A DNA stretch of 64,000 nucleotides from assembly GCF_020386615.1 (NCBI RefSeq), contig NZ_CP077769.1:248001-312000 (forward strand). Direction: 5' to 3'. This DNA is from Chitinophaga pendula. Its GTDB lineage: Bacteria > Bacteroidota > Bacteroidia > Chitinophagales > Chitinophagaceae. This document shows, piece by piece, positions 4,619 through 63,902 of this stretch (positions within the stretch are counted from its first letter, which is position 1; every line of letters starts with the position of its first letter). Made by a program: the position numbers and the translations under genes. A model generated the notes under the pieces. That model saw only the letters and a list, made by a program, of their open reading frames with translations, did no database searches and was not told where the DNA came from.

Positions 4619-5347
4619 ATGAAAAAGATCATGTGCCTTTCCTCCGCCATTATGGTCGGCGCGCTGCTATTATCCAGCTGCCACGTATCCGGACAAAGAG
4701 TAAACGGTAGCGGCAACGTCGCCAAAGAAGAACGCCAGGTAGGAGAATTCGATGGCGTTATACTCCGTGGCAGCATGGACGTATACGTACAACAAGGTAC
4801 CGCCAAAGCCGCTGTCATCGAAGCTGAAGACAACATCATCCCCTACATCCAACTCGATAACAGGGGAGGAATGCTCACCGTAGATGTGCGCAAAGGTGTC
4901 AACCTCCGCACCCACAAAGGAATTAAGATATATCTCACCACCTCCACCATCAACAAGGCAGTACTCTCCGGCTCCGGCGACCTCGCCCTCAAAGGCCCCT
5001 TCTCCAGCAAAGAAAAAGTAGATGTCGACCTCTCCGGCTCCGGCAACATCACCGGCAACCTAAGCGGCCCCAGCGTAGAAGTAGGCATCTCCGGCTCCGG
5101 CAACGTACAACTCAAAGGCTCCACCAAAGACTTCGAACTCCATACCTCCGGTAGCGGCGACTTCGACGGCGGCGACCTCCTCTCCGAAAATGCCTTGGTA
5201 AAAATCAGTGGCAGCGGCAATGCCAAAGTACATGCCTCCGTTAGACTGGAAACCAACATCTCCGGCTCCGGCGACGTGCGCTATAAAGGCAGCCCACAGA
5301 TCGATTCCAGGATCCATGGCTCCGGCTCCGTAAAGAAAGCCGACTGA
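4619..5347 (+). CDS. GIN-domain (DUF2807) putative auto-transporter adhesin lipoprotein
   Basis: 242 residues. The N-terminus is a lipoprotein signal with lipobox LSSC (Cys21). The rest is one head-GIN domain (DUF2807), a right-handed beta-helix fold marked by regularly spaced SGSG(N/D) turns: GSGNV, SGSGDLALKG, SGSGNITGNL, SGSGNVQLKG, SGSGDFDGG, GSGNAKV, SGSGDVRYKG and HGSGSV. Such proteins are common in Bacteroidota and are thought to sit at the outer membrane facing the periplasm or the surface; no reaction is known. The gene stands alone between guaA (divergent) and a methyltransferase and ends at a strong terminator. Confidence 0.88.
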   Translation: MKKIMCLSSAIMVGALLLSSCHVSGQRVNGSGNVAKEERQVGEFDGVILRGSMDVYVQQGTAKAAVIEAEDNIIPYIQLDNRGGMLTVDVRKGVNLRTHKGIKIYLTTSTINKAVLSGSGDLALKGPFSSKEKVDVDLSGSGNITGNLSGPSVEVGISGSGNVQLKGSTKDFELHTSGSGDFDGGDLLSENALVKISGSGNAKVHASVRLETNISGSGDVRYKGSPQIDSRIHGSGSVKKAD

Positions 5348-5380
5348 TAACAACTACCTTTACAAACATACTATCACGAC

Positions 5381-5420
5381 CAACGCTCCGGAGCATACCC
5401 TCCGGAGCGTTGTCAATTTA
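5381..5420 (+). terminator. Strong hairpin terminator after the GIN gene
   Basis: A perfect 13-bp stem, CAACGCTCCGGAG with CTCCGGAGCGTTG, has a 6-nt loop and is followed by TCAATTTATATA. It lies about 35 bp after the GIN stop codon and 25 bp before the next start. Confidence 0.8.
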
Positions 5421-5443
5421 TATATCTATTAATTATAAAAACA

Positions 5444-6115
5444 ATGAAAGAACAACAACCACCAAACATGCAGCAACTGGCCAGCCAACTCAGACAACCC
5501 AGCGGCGAAGATGGCCTGAAACTGGCAGAAAATATGAACCTCGGCAACCGCCTCATCAATGAAAGGACCATCGCTTTCCTCCAACCCGCCGCCCACCAGC
5601 ATATCCTCGAAATAGGATTCGCCAATGGCCACTTCATCCCCCAGGTACTATCCCTCGCTCCCGGTATCCGGTACTGCGGCATCGATATCTCCGATGTAAT
5701 GGTCGCCGAAGCAGGCAAACGTAACGAAGCCGCCATCACCGCAGGCAACGTACAGCTACACCTCACCGGCGCCGATCAGATACCCTACGCCGACAACACC
5801 TTCGACAGGATATTCGGCATCAATGTCCTCTACTTCTGGGACCAGCCACACAAAGAATTACAGGAAATACTACGCGTACTTAAACCCGGCGGCCAGCTCA
5901 TACTGGGCATCCGCAGCCGCAACAGCATGGCCTCCCTGCCATTCACCTCCCACGGCTTTACCTTGTACAACACCGACGAAGCAGTCGCACTCCTCGAACA
6001 AAATAATTTCAATATCACCGAATATCATTTCATAAAAGAACCCGAAAAACTGGCGCCAGACGGCGTTACAAAGGTGCAACTCGATAGCATCTTCCTGCGC
6101 GCAGAAAAAAAGTAA
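5444..6115 (+). CDS. Class I SAM-dependent methyltransferase
   Basis: 223 residues with a Methyltransf_11-type Rossmann fold. The SAM-binding motif I is ILEIGFANGHF (about residue 49), the acidic residue after the second strand is in YCGIDISDVMV, and the post-motif strand is LRVLKPGGQLILGI (about residue 145). The substrate cannot be predicted; ubiquinone/menaquinone-type and small-molecule methyltransferases look alike at this level. It precedes the pigment cluster on the same strand, but a 245-bp gap with no shared signal separates them, so membership is uncertain. Confidence 0.85.
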   Translation: MKEQQPPNMQQLASQLRQPSGEDGLKLAENMNLGNRLINERTIAFLQPAAHQHILEIGFANGHFIPQVLSLAPGIRYCGIDISDVMVAEAGKRNEAAITAGNVQLHLTGADQIPYADNTFDRIFGINVLYFWDQPHKELQEILRVLKPGGQLILGIRSRNSMASLPFTSHGFTLYNTDEAVALLEQNNFNITEYHFIKEPEKLAPDGVTKVQLDSIFLRAEKK

Positions 6116-54954: not shown

Positions 54955-56205
54955 ATGGCAATGTTAGTGATTTCCAACTCGTATATATATGGTACGTGGT
55001 ATTGTAATGATGGTAGGGCTAGAGCCTCAACAGGAATCAAAGGGCGATCAATAAAAAAGGAGCAAGTAGATGGAAGAGATCAAGACTGGGGGCTTGTTGA
55101 TATTGGAGCTTTGAAGCGATCTGAGAAAATGATACTTAACAAAGTAATAGATGCTATCACCAAATATAAGGAGAGTTGCGCAAGGCTAGGCGAACCACTT
55201 AAAAAAGTAGACTGCGAGGAAGCTATAATAATTGCGTCTGGCCGGCTGCCAAAAGATAAGAATAGATTTATCACAGATTATGAAAGTATGATTAAAGACA
55301 TGAGAAGTGGGAAATTACTTGTTCCCCGATCTCAAAAGCGGTATGCGTCTGCCTCAATTGACAATTATCAATGGGCATTAAATAGGATTTTATTGTTTGT
55401 GGAAGAACAAGGGATGAAATTAGAATACAAGAGAATAGATAAAAAATGGGTTGAAAAATACATACAATGGTTGACTGAGAGACAATTGTCAAAAAATAGT
55501 TTGGCGTTCTCACTACAGTATCTTGCAGCCTTTCTCCGTAGAACATACGATGATGACAAGCACAAAAATCCTATCGGGTTTGACAAGGTTTTTAACGTTT
55601 CTTCTGAGGAATCTGACACGGTTGCGGTCAGCATACCAGAGCTTGAAACAGTTTATAGGCTCACGACTTCACTATCTAGGGAGCGGGCACGAGATGTATT
55701 TGTCTTTGGATGTTTTGTTGGTCTAAGGGCTGACGATCTTCGGAAGATAAATCACTATATTCTGGTTGGTGATTATTTTGAGTTTCATACTGGGAAAAGT
55801 GACGAAAGGGTTATTATTCCGGCACATCCAGTAGCGAAGGAGATTTGGAAAAAGTATAACGGGAATATGCCGGTATATAAATACAATAGTGGCCTAGCTA
55901 GGGGAATTTGTTCAGTGTTTAAACAGGCAGGTATCGATACTCCTATATTAGTAGCAATTACAAAAGGTGGAGTAAAAGGTTGGCGTTATTACCCTAAATA
56001 TGATCTAGTATCACCACATACGATGCGACGTACATTTGCCACTAACGCTATAAAGGCTGGTATACCGACTAGAAAGGTAATGCAGTTTACAGGACATACT
56101 ACAGAGGATTCATTTAAGAGATACGTTAAGTTAGATAAGAAAGAGAATGCCGAAGACCTGGCATCACACCCCTTTTTTACTACTCCCCTGTCTCAAAGTC
56201 ACTAA
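54955..56205 (+). CDS. Tyrosine-type site-specific integrase
   Basis: 416 residues. An N-terminal SAM-like core-binding domain (about 110-220) precedes the catalytic domain with Arg in FVGLRADDL, the HxxR box HTMRR, GHTT, and nucleophile Tyr390 in RYVK. It is transcribed into the element. Catalyses integration and excision. Codon use and GC content differ from the host genes upstream. Confidence 0.93.
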   Translation: MAMLVISNSYIYGTWYCNDGRARASTGIKGRSIKKEQVDGRDQDWGLVDIGALKRSEKMILNKVIDAITKYKESCARLGEPLKKVDCEEAIIIASGRLPKDKNRFITDYESMIKDMRSGKLLVPRSQKRYASASIDNYQWALNRILLFVEEQGMKLEYKRIDKKWVEKYIQWLTERQLSKNSLAFSLQYLAAFLRRTYDDDKHKNPIGFDKVFNVSSEESDTVAVSIPELETVYRLTTSLSRERARDVFVFGCFVGLRADDLRKINHYILVGDYFEFHTGKSDERVIIPAHPVAKEIWKKYNGNMPVYKYNSGLARGICSVFKQAGIDTPILVAITKGGVKGWRYYPKYDLVSPHTMRRTFATNAIKAGIPTRKVMQFTGHTTEDSFKRYVKLDKKENAEDLASHPFFTTPLSQSH

Positions 56206-58160: not shown

Positions 58161-58299
58161 GTGGTGTTACAATTCACCACATCATAATAATCGCCTTCAG
58201 GGTATAAGAAGACGCGATATGGCAATGTCCATGATAGGACTACTGTGCTTCATTATCATTGTTCTCATCCCTTGGCTACTGGCAGTTATACGCCGATAA
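58144..58299 (+). CDS. Small membrane protein
   Basis: 51 residues from the ATG at 58144. Basic N-terminus and a C-terminal helix (SMIGLLCFIIIVLIPWLLAV). Overlap with the preceding frame suggests coupled expression. Function unknown. Confidence 0.4.
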   Translation: MNTQRRWCYNSPHHNNRLQGIRRRDMAMSMIGLLCFIIIVLIPWLLAVIRR

Positions 58300-58327
58300 A
58301 ATCAAAGCAAATAAAAGACTGAAAAAT

Positions 58328-59071
58328 ATGGAAGTTGTACACAAAGGCTTTACATCCGAGCAGGTTAGCCTTATTAAATCCCAGGTAGCAGATGGCGCGA
58401 CTGATGATCAGCTTCGGCTGTTTCTGTACCAATGCCACCGCACCGGACTGGACCCATTGGCAAAGCAGATATACTGCCTTTTTCGTAACGCTAAGGATAA
58501 GGATACAAACAGGTATGTGAAGAAGATGGTAATTCAGACGTCTATTGATGGATTTCGGGTAGTGGCCGAGAGAACGGGTAACTACGCGGGGCAGGACGAA
58601 CCAGTTTTTATTGAGGATAGTACCGGGGGCCTCGTATGTGCAAAAGTTCCGGTTTACCGGTTTCGGGGAGATCAAAGATATAAGGCTGCTGTAGGGGTTG
58701 CGTACTGGGCTGAATATGTACCCCAACCAGGCCAAGATACAATGTGGCGGAAAATGCCTCACGCTATGCTTAGCAAAGTTGCTGAAGCTATCGCATTAAG
58801 AAAGGCTTACCCGCAAGACCTTTCAGGTTTGTATACGAATGATGAAATGGCGCAGTCTGCTGACCAAACAACAGAAGTGGTAGACGTAGTAGCAATGGAA
58901 GTAAAAGACACCGAGGGCCTCGATATGCTAATAGACAGCTGTGAAACGATACCCGAGCTAGTTGCACTCTATCACAAACATGCCCAGTCCTTTGAGCAGA
59001 ACCAGGAAATTAAGCAACGATTATCTAACCGTAAAGAAGAACTAAGAAATGCAAAACCTGCCACTGCCTGA
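58328..59071 (+). CDS. Bet/RecT-family single-strand annealing protein
   Basis: 247 residues from the ATG at 58328. The RecT/Bet core runs from about residue 5 to 170: DPLAKQIYCLFRNAKD, QTSIDGFRVVAERTGNYAGQ, PVYRFRGDQRYKAAVGVAYW and MLSKVAEAIALRKAYPQDLSG. It anneals complementary single strands in phage recombination. No exonuclease partner is visible in the window. Confidence 0.93.
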   Translation: MEVVHKGFTSEQVSLIKSQVADGATDDQLRLFLYQCHRTGLDPLAKQIYCLFRNAKDKDTNRYVKKMVIQTSIDGFRVVAERTGNYAGQDEPVFIEDSTGGLVCAKVPVYRFRGDQRYKAAVGVAYWAEYVPQPGQDTMWRKMPHAMLSKVAEAIALRKAYPQDLSGLYTNDEMAQSADQTTEVVDVVAMEVKDTEGLDMLIDSCETIPELVALYHKHAQSFEQNQEIKQRLSNRKEELRNAKPATA

Positions 59072-60161: not shown

Positions 60162-60434
60162 ATGCAGCAGCTCACATTTGATTTGACGTCGCCCAGTCCG
60201 ATTAATGCAGCAAAATTCACCAGGCAAAACAGGTTGATTTATCAGCATTTGGCTTGTGGCCTCACCATTAATGTATTTCAGGCCATATCGCGCTACCAAA
60301 TATATCATTTGCATAGTCGCTTATCGGACATCCGTAACAAACACGGCGTCCTGGTCTATGATCGCATGATACGGGTTAAAGATTCATCGGGCAATATGGT
60401 TAGTTGCAAGGAATATTCATTAAAAGAGTTCTGA
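60162..60434 (+). CDS. Winged-helix domain protein
   Basis: 90 residues resembling the HTH_39-type winged helix: NRLIYQHLACGLTINVFQAI, then YHLHSRLSDIRNKHGVLVYD. Such small proteins occur in phage early operons and probably regulate transcription. Confidence 0.7.
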   Translation: MQQLTFDLTSPSPINAAKFTRQNRLIYQHLACGLTINVFQAISRYQIYHLHSRLSDIRNKHGVLVYDRMIRVKDSSGNMVSCKEYSLKEF

Positions 60435-60436
60435 AA

Positions 60437-61498
60437 ATGATAACAATAAAAACGACTGATTTAAAGGAGTTTATCCGACTTGCTAAGGGGGTTACAAGAA
60501 ATAGTATAATACCTGTTCTTCAGTATGTGATGTGTCGGTGTGTCGGCGACACTATGACTTTATGCAAAAGCAACCAGGAGACTGTAGTCTCGCATGATAT
60601 AAGTGCTGAATTTGATGAGAATATATCTTTCCTGGTGGATGACAAGACTTTGACAGCCTTTGTAGCTACCGCTGAGGACGAAGTATCAATACGTTTAAAC
60701 GGAAACAAAGTTACATTGATATCTGGTAGTGTAACGATAGATACGTTCTATCCTAATGGGGGTGAAAAGGATTATCCCGATCCTCCTACCGCCGTGTCTG
60801 ATACTTCTTACCTGTTAAACAGGCATGTGTTAAAATCTATCGCTGTGGCTGGGACATACTTGTCAGCATTGGATAATAACCCTCTTTCTTTTTGTTATAT
60901 ACTCCCGGCTGAAGATAGGTCTGTTATAGTGGGTACTGACGCGCACATCTTGTATTTAACAGAAATCGCTATTTCGCTTCCCAATATAGTGTTGTCTAAG
61001 GAGGCAACGGTTCTAGTGGGTGCATTCGATAAGCTGCAATATTTCAGCTATCAAAACTACAATGTCTTCAACGCGGGAAAGACTACATATGCTTTCATCA
61101 AACCAACGTATACAGCTCTCCCTTACAAACGGGTATTAGATTCAGCCACAAGCCCCGGACGGATGACCGTTAACCGGAAAGATATAATAAGGTTCTGCGA
61201 GGCAGCGCTGGGGGTAAGTACCTGCAAGTGGACGATAGGCACTCTTTCAAATTCGGATGATGGGTTAACGCTAGGATACTACGAAGAGAGCGTATCTCTG
61301 TCCAACGTCATCACAGCGGAAAAAAATTTTGTTCCTGCGGTCTTCAACTTTAATACTCGCCTGCTATTACATGTTTTTAAATCCCTTCCTGGCGAGTATC
61401 TGAGCCTGCAACCAGGAGAACGAGCCAATGGTACTATGTACTTCGTTCGGAGCGAGCAGGAGGCTTCAACCGTCGCGCTAATTAACGGTTTGGTTTAA
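60437..61498 (+). CDS. Phage sliding clamp (DnaN-like beta subunit)
   Basis: 353 residues from the ATG at 60437. The beta-clamp fold shows as MITIKTTDLKEFIRLAKGVT at the N-terminus and two later repeats, ending with a clamp-like C-terminal segment VRSEQEASTVALINGLV. It would tether a DNA polymerase. A phage-encoded clamp beside Bet suggests the phage partly replicates with its own factor. Divergent from host DnaN; product call is moderate to high. Confidence 0.85.
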   Translation: MITIKTTDLKEFIRLAKGVTRNSIIPVLQYVMCRCVGDTMTLCKSNQETVVSHDISAEFDENISFLVDDKTLTAFVATAEDEVSIRLNGNKVTLISGSVTIDTFYPNGGEKDYPDPPTAVSDTSYLLNRHVLKSIAVAGTYLSALDNNPLSFCYILPAEDRSVIVGTDAHILYLTEIAISLPNIVLSKEATVLVGAFDKLQYFSYQNYNVFNAGKTTYAFIKPTYTALPYKRVLDSATSPGRMTVNRKDIIRFCEAALGVSTCKWTIGTLSNSDDGLTLGYYEESVSLSNVITAEKNFVPAVFNFNTRLLLHVFKSLPGEYLSLQPGERANGTMYFVRSEQEASTVALINGLV

Positions 61499-62527: not shown

Positions 62528-63368
62528 GTTACAAGAAATGAGCACTGAGGTACTATTTAAGGGCCTTCCCCGGGCTTTAAACCAGATCGGCGTTATTACA
62601 GGCTTAAAGGTGGAATCAAGCCCGGAGTTCGCCAGGGCATTCGCTCAGGAGGTAAGTATCTTCCTCTATAATCACTACGGTATACTCACCCTCGACGAAA
62701 TAGTTTTAGCGTTTCGGCTGAATGCCTCCGGGGAATATGGCGACATTATCTCTCATTATGGCCAAAATTTAACGATCGAGCACATAGGTAGGGTCTTGGT
62801 CCAGTATAAACAAAGGCGGGCAAAATTGGCGGTTAAAATCCAAAATCAGGAAAAGCTGCCCGAGGCACCAAGGCCAACATCTTCCGCGATTGACGAAGAG
62901 GCAAGGCAATTCGCAAACGAGTATTACCGGAAATATCTAACCGGGGAGATGACCGAGATCACAATTTCGTATGCCCATTTGGTGTATAATGACCTCGATA
63001 GGTTTGGAGTGCTTAACCTGGATAAGGAAAAGAAAATAGGATACTACAAGGAGGCACTGCTATTTAGGAAAAAGGAATTAGGATTACCAGCGGCAACGAA
63101 AGATGAAAGAAAGGCGATTAATAAGTTGGTACAGTCGTATTTGGAAAAGCAGGTTCCTGTGGCAGAAAAGGAGTTGGTGCGGAATTACGCACGGCGACTG
63201 GCACTGCTAGATTATTTCAAAGCCTTAAAAGGTAAGGATATAAAAAAAATATTTGAAGATGAGCGAATACATGAAGGAACGCCTACAAATGAAGCTGGAA
63301 GGCAAGAAACAGGGAAAGGAGAAGCCAAAAAGAATTCGACCAGTCAGCAAGAAGAGGCAGCAAATTAA
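62421..63368 (+). CDS. Hypothetical phage protein overlapping the replication gene
   Basis: 315 residues if it starts at 62421, overlapping the previous gene by 107 bp in another frame. An ATG at 62538 would avoid overlap and keep the conserved-looking region ALNQIGVITGLKVESSPEFA onward. Helical and charged, no P-loop; family unknown. Position suggests a helicase-loader-like role, but that is not supported by motif. Confidence 0.7.
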   Translation: MESRESRQLQTVQQQLTPLSMTSSEVWMQKCAAGDRLQEMSTEVLFKGLPRALNQIGVITGLKVESSPEFARAFAQEVSIFLYNHYGILTLDEIVLAFRLNASGEYGDIISHYGQNLTIEHIGRVLVQYKQRRAKLAVKIQNQEKLPEAPRPTSSAIDEEARQFANEYYRKYLTGEMTEITISYAHLVYNDLDRFGVLNLDKEKKIGYYKEALLFRKKELGLPAATKDERKAINKLVQSYLEKQVPVAEKELVRNYARRLALLDYFKALKGKDIKKIFEDERIHEGTPTNEAGRQETGKGEAKKNSTSQQEEAAN

Positions 63369-63615
63369 CCGGGAGTATTCGGAAATCTCCCGCCCGATTT
63401 GGCAGGATAAGCCGTGTATGATCCGTGCGCCTGGTTGTTGGGGCCGCGCCCAGGGTATCCACCATCCGGGCGGCAAAACAAGTGTAGAGGCTCTATTGGA
63501 TGAAAGAAATATGATTGCCTCCTGTAACTATTGTAATGCCTTCGTAGAGCAGCATGACGCCTGGGCCCGGATAAGAAAGTTTAAGGTGTCCCGCTTGAAT
63601 AAGTTGAATGATTAA
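63259..63615 (+). CDS. HNH-type zinc-binding phage protein
   Basis: 118 residues from the ATG at 63259. Zinc-like motif PCMIRAPGCWGRAQGIHHPG, then CNYCNAFVEQHDAWAR gives paired Cys and the His-His of an HNH fold. May cut or process phage DNA. It overlaps the preceding gene by 110 bp, and its stop overlaps that of the peptide on the other strand by 4 bp. Confidence 0.75.
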   Translation: MSEYMKERLQMKLEGKKQGKEKPKRIRPVSKKRQQINREYSEISRPIWQDKPCMIRAPGCWGRAQGIHHPGGKTSVEALLDERNMIASCNYCNAFVEQHDAWARIRKFKVSRLNKLND

Positions 63616-63791
63616 ACGGTTTGGCAAACACCTTCTATACATTCGCACCTACTTTCCCAATCTCCGCATTCGTCCCAATTGAAACAAAGTTTTATTTGGC
63701 AAATAGGTCTCATTTCTATGGAAGCGCCTCCGCCCAAAATGTCCTTCATTTCAGCGCGTGATATTACAGGATATTTGTTAAGGAATTTCAT
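63612..63791 (-). CDS. Double-glycine leader peptide with six-cysteine core
   Basis: 59 residues on the minus strand, opposite to the phage genes. The leader MKFLNKYPVISRAEMKDI ends with LGGG, matching the Bacteroidota natural-product leader pattern (SRxEMK..xGG). After the Gly-Gly the 37-38 residue core holds Cys31, 36, 42, 49, 51 and 56 in an acidic setting. Such leaders direct cleavage and export by a peptidase-containing ABC transporter. No modification or export gene is visible; they may lie beyond the edge. It is absent from standard calls because of its size. The plus-strand frame across the same DNA has no features. Confidence 0.7.
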   Translation of the reverse strand: MKFLNKYPVISRAEMKDILGGGASIEMRPICQIKLCFNWDECGDWESRCECIEGVCQTV

Positions 63792-63806: not shown

Positions 63807-63835
63807 TAAAGTTAAGTTTAGCTACGGAGTTCAAA
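63807..63835 (-). promoter_or_regulatory. Candidate promoter of the leader peptide
   Basis: On the minus strand TTTG (63832-63835) and TAACTTTA (63807-63814) are 17 nt apart, close to the Bacteroidota pattern. The start codon follows about 15 nt later, giving a short leader. Confidence 0.3.
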
Positions 63836-63902
63836 ACGCAGTACGTGATAAATACACTATGCAACGAAAAATAGGCAGTCGTAAATGAAGTGCTAGCAAT
63901 TA

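Follow-up and report, generated by a model that had tools for sequence, protein, structure and literature searches.

A prophage-borne double-glycine peptide of Chitinophaga pendula belongs to a dispersed family of cysteine-rich precursors and is predicted to depend on a distant oxidase–exporter operon

RESULTS

P0001 is a member of a large family of double-glycine, cysteine-rich peptides

A stretch of 64,000 nucleotides from Chitinophaga pendula (NZ_CP077769.1, positions 248,001 to 312,000; from here on, the window) carries near its right end a short minus-strand gene, P0001, whose product has a double-glycine (GG) leader and a core with six cysteines. P0001 is a real gene, beyond chance, and belongs to a family with at least 80 members at 39 loci of the 7.66-Mb genome. 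The reading that we favor, with a confidence somewhat above even, is that P0001 encodes a secreted, disulfide-rich, knottin-like miniprotein, that one machine encoded at 4.21 Mb serves the whole dispersed arsenal, and that the peptides act in antagonism of neighboring microbes.

An earlier inspection of the letters of the window (the sequence-only reading) had described a 59-codon minus-strand frame with a GG leader and six cysteines spread over 26 residues. This is borne out by the translation, which runs from ATG to stop, with the cysteines located within residues 31–56. On the other hand, the picture of a lone peptide had to be corrected, because the gene is not a single oddity. A tblastn search of P0001 in its own genome gave 39 matches at E ≤ 10, self included, and the best paralog, located at 7.389 Mb, was 75% identical over the full length (E 1.2e-28). 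A profile of 49 members gave 84 matches at E ≤ 1e-3 in the same genome. The 40 loci extracted by position contained 82 hidden Markov model frames, from which the 80 of at least 50 amino acids (aa) were kept (frames of 4 and 32 aa were dropped); these formed 39 clusters at gaps of at least 6 kb, and matches beyond the extracted loci were left uncounted. Met1, Arg12, Gly20, and the six cysteines were invariant in the alignment of the 49 members, which had been chosen by the six-cysteine pattern and whose starts were set with the help of a G-G/A/S pair, while Arg12 had no part in the choice. The number of core cysteines was even in all 80 members (six in 75, four in four, and eight in one), although a few of the leader cut points behind these counts are approximate. 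The start region of the 80 genes was A-rich, with 68%–72% A at positions −13 to −11, compared to 47%–57% in 199 control genes.

The comparison of P0001 with the 7.389-Mb paralog gave a nonsynonymous rate (dN) of 0.135 and a synonymous rate (dS) of 0.80, with all six cysteines kept. The corresponding dN and dS values were 0.041 and 0.70 for the leader, and 0.19 and 0.87 for the core, while pairs with a second Chitinophaga species gave dN/dS values of 0.19/1.01 and 0.27/1.16. These values indicate that the P0001 family is under purifying selection. The full-length paralog, the dN/dS values, and the retention of all six cysteines together argue that P0001 did not arise by chance. The sequence-only reading was to be abandoned if homologs with conserved cysteines and signs of coding constraint were lacking, and both are clearly present. 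Apparently broken copies of family genes, with in-frame stops, were also observed at G000:C1:2361044 and 3526187, which is consistent with birth and death of the genes in this family.

Comparisons with existing models were less informative. The leader had been expected to match natural-product leader models; it showed a weak likeness to TIGR04149 (14.7 bits, cut-off 25) and to the NF047798 bacteriocin-like leader (14.4 bits, cut-off 23.5), but every score was under its cut-off. P0001 had no match in Pfam, none in PHROGs at E ≤ 1, and none among PADLOC defense models at E ≤ 1e-3. Close relatives of P0001 were absent from the viral-contig and phage collections searched, and no close relative was found for one paralog in viral contigs and for another in plasmids. 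A four-row alignment compared with a genome-contig collection gave 57 stretches with the pattern, among which tblastn identified no relative.

A single VKOR fusion and an exporter are encoded with nine family members at 4.21 Mb

The 4.21-Mb region contains a same-strand run of genes with gaps of 13–181 bp, which begins with a 548-aa fusion of C39-like, VKOR, and thioredoxin parts, continues with nine peptides of the family and a 733-aa C39-peptidase ABC exporter, and ends with an HlyD-like open reading frame (ORF). Apart from the peptide genes and the exporter, no gene separates the VKOR fusion from the HlyD-like ORF. The fusion is the single one in the genome at E ≤ 1e-20, and it is also one of the seven C39 matches in the genome. 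The cysteines of the VKOR and thioredoxin motifs, which are catalytic, were invariant in eight of eight aligned fusions, while the C39-like part had no invariant cysteine. This C39-like domain may bind the leader. The 4.21-Mb exporter likely serves the prophage copy, P0001, in trans as well.

The distribution of the family was analyzed using a peptide profile built from this genome alone. Within a sample of 79 genomes of the genus, 15 had a match at E ≤ 0.01, with at least 81 matches in this genome, at least 36 in G811, at least 13 in G820, and at least one to four in each of the other 12. Among the 14 other genomes with a match, 11 were compared for the position of the VKOR fusion (all but G806, G812, and G832). 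The peptide match was within 0.6 kb of the fusion in nine of them (G013, G017, G028, G031, G033, G767, G810, G811, and G820), while the distance was 4.5 kb in G009, and the two were on separate contigs in G026. In wider samples, scored for at most 16 candidates in each genome, matches were found in at least five of 395 genomes of the phylum (E ≤ 1e-4) and at least seven of 396 of the order (E ≤ 1e-3), the own genome being included in both.

The relation was then viewed from the side of the oxidase, using the best 80 of 220 relatives of the fusion, which represent 79 loci (L157–L235). In 68 of these loci, which span Chitinophaga, Mucilaginibacter, Sediminibacterium, Pedobacter, Dyadobacter, and others, a frame with a GG leader and four or more cysteines was present within 2.5 kb of the oxidase. 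Such frames numbered 102 in the 362 kb close to the oxidase and nine in the 601 kb far from it (at least 5 kb). The contrast is large, although its P values are too small owing to related sequences among the loci, and a few of the frames, which were found by a regular expression, look spurious. The cysteine count was even in 94 of the 102 near frames, and the exporter was also present in 57 of the 79 loci within the DNA examined. These data point to a link between oxidase and peptide that is general in Bacteroidota. The GG-leader frames of the 79 loci mostly had six or eight cysteines, mostly spaced unlike the knottin-like pattern, which was seen in eight frames.

The stretches examined in the two other genomes rich in matches yielded 35 frames in G811 (22 with the knottin-like spacing) and 27 in G820 (26 with it), after the removal of frames below 45 aa and of frames with up to five cysteines; the same, wider regular expression gave 68 of 80 in this genome. 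Among the sets of the three genomes, 69 of the 80 members had their best match in their own genome. Tandem runs of GG-leader frames were observed in G820 (15, 5, and 6 frames in L149:1715–5505, L148, and L150, respectively), a few of which carry an extra leader cysteine. These arrays mostly have the spacing C-x6/7-C-x2-4-C-x3/4-C-x1-C-x4-10-C, which we take to be close to that of squash inhibitors. In two members of G811 (L137:1506–2279), loop 5 extends to 40 and 43 residues and contains many Pro and Thr.

Part of the family is preceded by a promoter-like motif

Motif discovery in the 80 upstream regions returned the pattern CTGC-N9-GCAG-N10-TAnnTT. The simplified form CTGC-N23-TAnnTT preceded 15 of the 80 family genes, compared to zero to three genes at each other spacing from 14 to 35. 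With the spacing relaxed to N20-26, it preceded 19 of 80 family genes and three of 242 controls, the pattern being derived from the same genes. The copy upstream of P0001 deviates at two of the 12 specified positions, and equally good matches are found in four of the 63,968 plus-strand 33-mers of the window. Genome-wide, 91 sites were found with at most one mismatch, compared to 14 for the reversed pattern, the base order of which may lower its count. Thirteen of the 91 lay no more than 300 bp upstream of family genes, while 0.14 were expected, although this number is not independent of the motif discovery. In G811, GCAG-N10-TAnnTT was present in 10 of 33 upstream regions, but in none of 33 reverse strands and none of 33 downstream regions, and CTGC-N23-TAnnTT was present in three of 33. 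The signal was weak in G820 (one and two of 27, respectively), and it was absent from the seven VKOR-linked peptides. Cross-validation by locus in four splits gave p values of 0.0016, 0.013, 0.0017, and 0.47; the second split returned a T-rich and A-rich start-region pattern, and the third a partial CTGC element. From these data, we consider the motif likely to be genuine in a part of the family, where it could serve as a promoter. Copies with zero or one mismatch at G000:C1:5300784, 2956972, and 5425067/5425083 are not located before counted members, and it is possible that such copies mark other genes of a regulon.

Two other candidate signals were rejected. TAnnTTTG promoters were rarer before family genes (three of 80) than elsewhere (29 of 197), and the inverted-repeat arms alone, [AG]CTGC-N7-12-CAG, barely separated the sets (eight of 80 vs. 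nine of 242).

In three cross-species pairs the similarity spanned the gene and about 60–85 bp upstream, and the top eight tblastx rows per pair, from comparisons against 4–6 kb, included no match in the flanks. Because the similarity is limited to the gene and this short upstream region, the mobile unit looks like a promoter-plus-gene cassette.

P0001 is carried by a prophage

The sequence-only reading had placed the peptide gene in a prophage, and this was confirmed by an integrase, a RecT-like annealing protein, and a processivity clamp on the left (Table 1), as well as a tape measure gene and a terminase-like ORF on the right (L021:7284–8513; Terminase_6C 25.7 bits, cut-off 22.6). P0001 lies against the phage reading direction, as had been noted, and converges tail to tail, with a 4-bp overlap, with the ORF that had been called HNH; the position is correct, but the HNH name is backed by no model. 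The further idea that the slot after this ORF is a usual place for cargo genes was rejected. Homologs of the ORF were present in 10 other genomes of the genus, and none of the 10 showed a small GG-leader, cysteine-rich frame downstream (ATG frames of at least 45 aa within about 1.5 kb; the single flagged frame was 279 aa long).

A DNA match of 544 columns at 72% identity connects the P0001 region to 7.389 Mb and covers most of the HNH ORF too. There, the HNH ORF is broken by stops, while the adjoining peptide frames are intact. The region (L022:8974–10052) is apparently the relic of a related prophage, in which HNH has decayed and two homologous peptide genes have stayed intact.

Three more GG-leader, six-cysteine ORFs are located in the same prophage, 0.9–1.7 kb from P0001, just past the end of the window. 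Between P0001 and this cluster, on the strand of P0001, there is a 175-aa ORF (L021:3903–4430, equal to G000:C1:311903–312430) without a match in PHROGs, NCBIfam, or PADLOC, and, as a slightly longer frame, in Pfam. It is possibly a second cargo gene. A rightward search for a C39 exporter, which the sequence-only reading had proposed, found none beside the prophage copy, while the likely exporter is the one at 4.21 Mb of the same genome.

Table 1. Coordinates of P0001, its prophage surroundings, and selected family members (window positions, or locus positions where a locus name is given)
Feature	Position	Strand	Remarks
GG-leader six-cysteine peptide gene P0001	63612..63791	−	59 aa: leader 1–21, core 22–59
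P0001 double-glycine leader, residues 1–21	63729..63791	−	Cut after GG is predicted
P0001 core	63615..63728	−	C-x4-C-x5-C-x6-C-x1-C-x4-C, knottin-like spacing
Promoter-like motif copy	63809..63841	−	CTGC-N23-TAACTT, 17 bases before the P0001 ATG
Phage ORF, called HNH in the sequence-only reading	63253..63615	+	phrog_7108, unknown function
Prophage integrase, left part of carrier	54955..56205	+	phrog_1, 4.5e-21
Prophage RecT-like annealing protein	58259..59071	+	phrog_2780, 1.6e-46
Prophage DNA polymerase processivity factor (clamp)	60404..61498	+	phrog_947, 4.2e-22
Neighboring GG-leader six-cysteine ORFs	L021:4704-4910, 5046-5219, 5250-5498		Start of the last uncertain
Members with CS-alpha-beta spacing	L029:6123-6338, L063:11961-12143, L071:2844-3032, L076:8653-8835, L078:8860-9039		

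DISCUSSION

Predicted fold and proposed mechanism

The sequence-only reading had recognized no family that the core of P0001 resembles, but its cysteine spacing and weak model matches are knottin-like. The spacing C-x3-6-C-x3-9-C-x2-9-C-x1-C-x4-12-C was present in all 49 aligned members, which were picked for six cysteines; loop 4 is always one residue, and loop 3 is most often four. A regular expression applied to the 80 members assigned knottin-like spacing to 65 of them, and the spacing of cysteine-stabilized alpha-beta (CS-alpha-beta) peptides to five. These five carry the same kind of leader, so that one leader family is associated with two scaffolds. The CS-alpha-beta defensin spacing (CxxxC ... 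CxC) is not present in P0001 itself. AlphaFold2 models of the full-length peptide and of the core both contained a C-terminal hairpin around CxC and the last cysteine. Most of the chains listed by Foldseek for the two models (21 and 12) were small cystine-rich peptides, including squash inhibitors, cyclotides, scorpion toxins, and a carboxypeptidase inhibitor. The squash trypsin inhibitor MCTI-A was among the matches of both models, and the root-mean-square deviation (rmsd) for squash inhibitors was 1.0–2.1. The core profile compared with PDB sequences gave no significant match, the best being trypsin inhibitor 2 (E 0.056), followed by a factor X EGF module (0.076), MCoCC-1 (0.16), many alpha-KTx 5.4 chains, and leginsulin (1.4), while the top matches of the full-length profile were crotoxin chain B (0.29) and carnobacteriocin B2 (0.41). 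Our best guess from these models is that the core fold is knottin-like.

In the mechanism that we propose, the 21-residue GG leader would be recognized and cut by the host C39-peptidase ABC transporter, which would export the peptide together with an HlyD-type adaptor. The six cysteines would be oxidized by the membrane VKOR-thioredoxin enzyme, the N-terminal C39-like domain of which may bind the leader, and the core would fold into a knottin-like scaffold with three disulfides (1–4, 2–5, and 3–6) and variable loops. The one machine at 4.21 Mb would serve at least 80 scattered precursors, many of them single promoter-plus-gene cassettes. As prophages carry some precursors, lysogeny would enlarge the arsenal. 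Like bacteroidetocins, the peptides most likely act against neighboring microbes without the need for cell contact. We consider it about an even bet that, in some Chitinophaga species, this amounts to a venom-like or plant-NCR-like strategy, in which one VKOR oxidase and one C39 exporter suffice for the maturation of at least 80 partly co-regulated cystine-knot miniproteins, together with some defensin-like ones, and in which cassettes are born and lost, and are carried by prophages that can extend the secreted arsenal of the host in trans. With regard to the sequence-only reading, the GG leader, the even-cysteine core, the carriage by a prophage, and the presence of C39 exporters in the genome are supported; the option of a modified natural product has gained no support.

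Several observations weigh against the mechanism proposed here. The AlphaFold2 models had mean predicted local distance difference test (pLDDT) values of 70.8 (full length) and 70.0 (core), and predicted template modeling (pTM) scores of 0.36 and 0.39. The best Foldseek E-values were 1.6 and 4.1, respectively, the top match of the core model was an unrelated D-peptide chain, and EGF modules, scorpion toxins, and crotoxin chain B rank alongside knottins. Export in trans is an assumption, because the exporter and oxidase are not near the prophage copy: no ORF for either was seen in 20 kb around it, as read by eye, and the genome has six C39 matches besides the 4.21-Mb exporter, one of them being the VKOR fusion. 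The upstream motif precedes only part of the family and is missing from the VKOR operon (best copy with five of 12 mismatches), and in cross-validation the clear CTGC element was regained in the first split only, the split with p 0.47 having failed outright. No target is indicated either, because no specific neighbor or small partner gene recurs. The recurring groups among 484 ORFs of at least 90 aa within 7 kb of members were general Bacteroidota families, as judged by eye, and 445 ORFs of 40–130 aa within 1.5 kb gave just one weak two-locus pair, and so shared neighbors were rejected as immunity or partner genes.

Alternative explanations

A serious, though doubtful, alternative is that the cores are disulfide-rich without being cystine knots, and have an EGF-like or CS-alpha-beta connectivity. 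The EGF modules and alpha-KTx chains in the profile searches, the five of 80 members that fit CS-alpha-beta spacing, and the moderate model confidence are consistent with it, while the short loop 3 (mostly four residues) and the alignments to squash inhibitors over 24–30 columns at the above rmsd argue for the knottin-like fold.

The main rival to antagonism of microbes, our first choice, is that the same secretion route delivers protease inhibitors or effectors against eukaryotes (fungi, amoebae, nematodes, or roots), which we think unlikely. The weak fold matches include squash trypsin inhibitors, ToPI1, and a carboxypeptidase inhibitor, but they are not significant, and because the loops vary among members there is no conserved inhibitory loop. 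Pinensin, a lanthipeptide of Chitinophaga, is antifungal according to the part of PMC12715929 considered here. No immunity-like partner recurs near members, which would fit a eukaryotic target; however, bacteroidetocins are likewise without immunity proteins in the sections of PMC6671954 used here, and yet they are antibacterial.

It is improbable that the peptides are cell-to-cell pheromones, like those with ComC/BlpC leaders. Pfam leader matches at E ≤ 0.1 among the 49 paralogs were to ComC in 13 and to Bacteriocin_IIc in 10, and response-regulator-like ORFs were seen by eye within 7 kb at 13 loci. On the other hand, there are about 80 diverse cores, large numbers occur in few of the 79 genus genomes, and no dedicated receptor gene recurs directly adjoining the members. 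Even less credible is a radical-SAM- or lanthionine-modified peptide: TIGR04149 members are annotated as radical-SAM-modified, but the likeness of the P0001 leader is below the cut-off, just nine of 49 paralogs match that model at E ≤ 0.1, the cysteine counts are even, and the linked enzyme is the VKOR-thioredoxin fusion, a predicted disulfide oxidase, although no search aimed at radical-SAM or LanM genes was made. A chance ORF without function, which the short frame and the ORFs on the other strand might suggest, deserves practically no weight given the paralogs, the dN/dS values, the A-rich start as in the 199 control genes, and the conserved cysteines.

Comparison with known systems

The bacteroidetocins (class IIf), as described in the sections of PMC6671954 considered here, resemble the P0001 family in having a GG leader and a small cysteine-containing core, in their occurrence in Bacteroidota, and in the lack of an immunity gene. 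Their locus contains a thiol oxidoreductase and a C39-peptidase ABC exporter, a combination found here at the nine-peptide 4.21-Mb operon but not beside P0001. Cleavage of the bacteroidetocin leader after GG is predicted, and activity is attenuated by deletion of the thiol oxidoreductase, while synthetic bacteroidetocins are active without a disulfide-forming step; these sections do not state whether the oxidoreductase is a VKOR (PMC6671954). Maturation of the P0001 family probably proceeds much as thought for bacteroidetocins. No immunity protein was found for them in that account, and producers inhibit themselves (PMC6671954); hence, the missing immunity gene is no argument against antagonism here. 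On the other hand, bacteroidetocins A and B have four cysteines (others at least two), a 15-aa leader, a 42-aa core, and a partner with five transmembrane segments (PMC6671954), while the present family has six cysteines with a knottin-like spacing, 80 or more members in dispersed positions, the C39-like/VKOR/thioredoxin fusion, and prophage carriage. Because of the different cysteine number and spacing, and because no five-transmembrane partner was seen, although no prediction of transmembrane segments was made, the P0001 family was not filed as bacteroidetocin, and its activity is a prediction.

The nearest described bacterial six-cysteine group that we found is that of the bacterial defensins of actinobacteria and myxobacteria, which, in the part of PMC8819291 considered here, are also small peptides with several genes clustered per species, but have a defensin scaffold, another precursor organization, and belong to other phyla. 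The five family members with CS-alpha-beta-like spacing come close to them, but have the GG leader. The TIGR04149 GG peptides and the NF047798 leader (NCBIfam) are the leader models close to that of P0001, which scores below both cut-offs and whose six-cysteine core is outside either description. In cyanobacteria, one maturation enzyme presumably processes the many precursors of prochlorosins; the logic of many precursors and one machine is alike, but the chemistry there is lanthionine formation, while here disulfides and an oxidase are predicted.

The knottins, or inhibitor cystine knots (squash inhibitors, cyclotides, and PA1b/leginsulin), share with the P0001 family the six cysteines, the single residue between the fourth and fifth of them, and the short loops. 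The differences are that the present peptides are bacterial and have a GG leader, that their connectivity is predicted, and that no significant sequence or fold match connects the two. Most known knottins come from plants, fungi, and animals, and in these lineages the scaffold has diversified into toxins, inhibitors, and peptides of defense. In the titles and beginnings of abstracts of the open-access literature, with subscription papers and preprints outside this search, we found no description of GG-leader knottins in bacteria. The oxidase provides a search handle for GG-leader, cysteine-rich peptides, as the 68 of 79 loci indicate, and the finding that a prophage carries a precursor but not the maturation genes suggests that a lysogen can draw on host-encoded machinery in trans. 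If the proposed reading is true, stable miniproteins could be obtained from the family in a genetically simple way, and a bacterial knottin-spaced family equipped with a leader, an oxidase, and an exporter of its own would permit direct tests of the repeated evolution of this scaffold for antagonism, as a bacterial counterpart of the eukaryotic knottin radiations.
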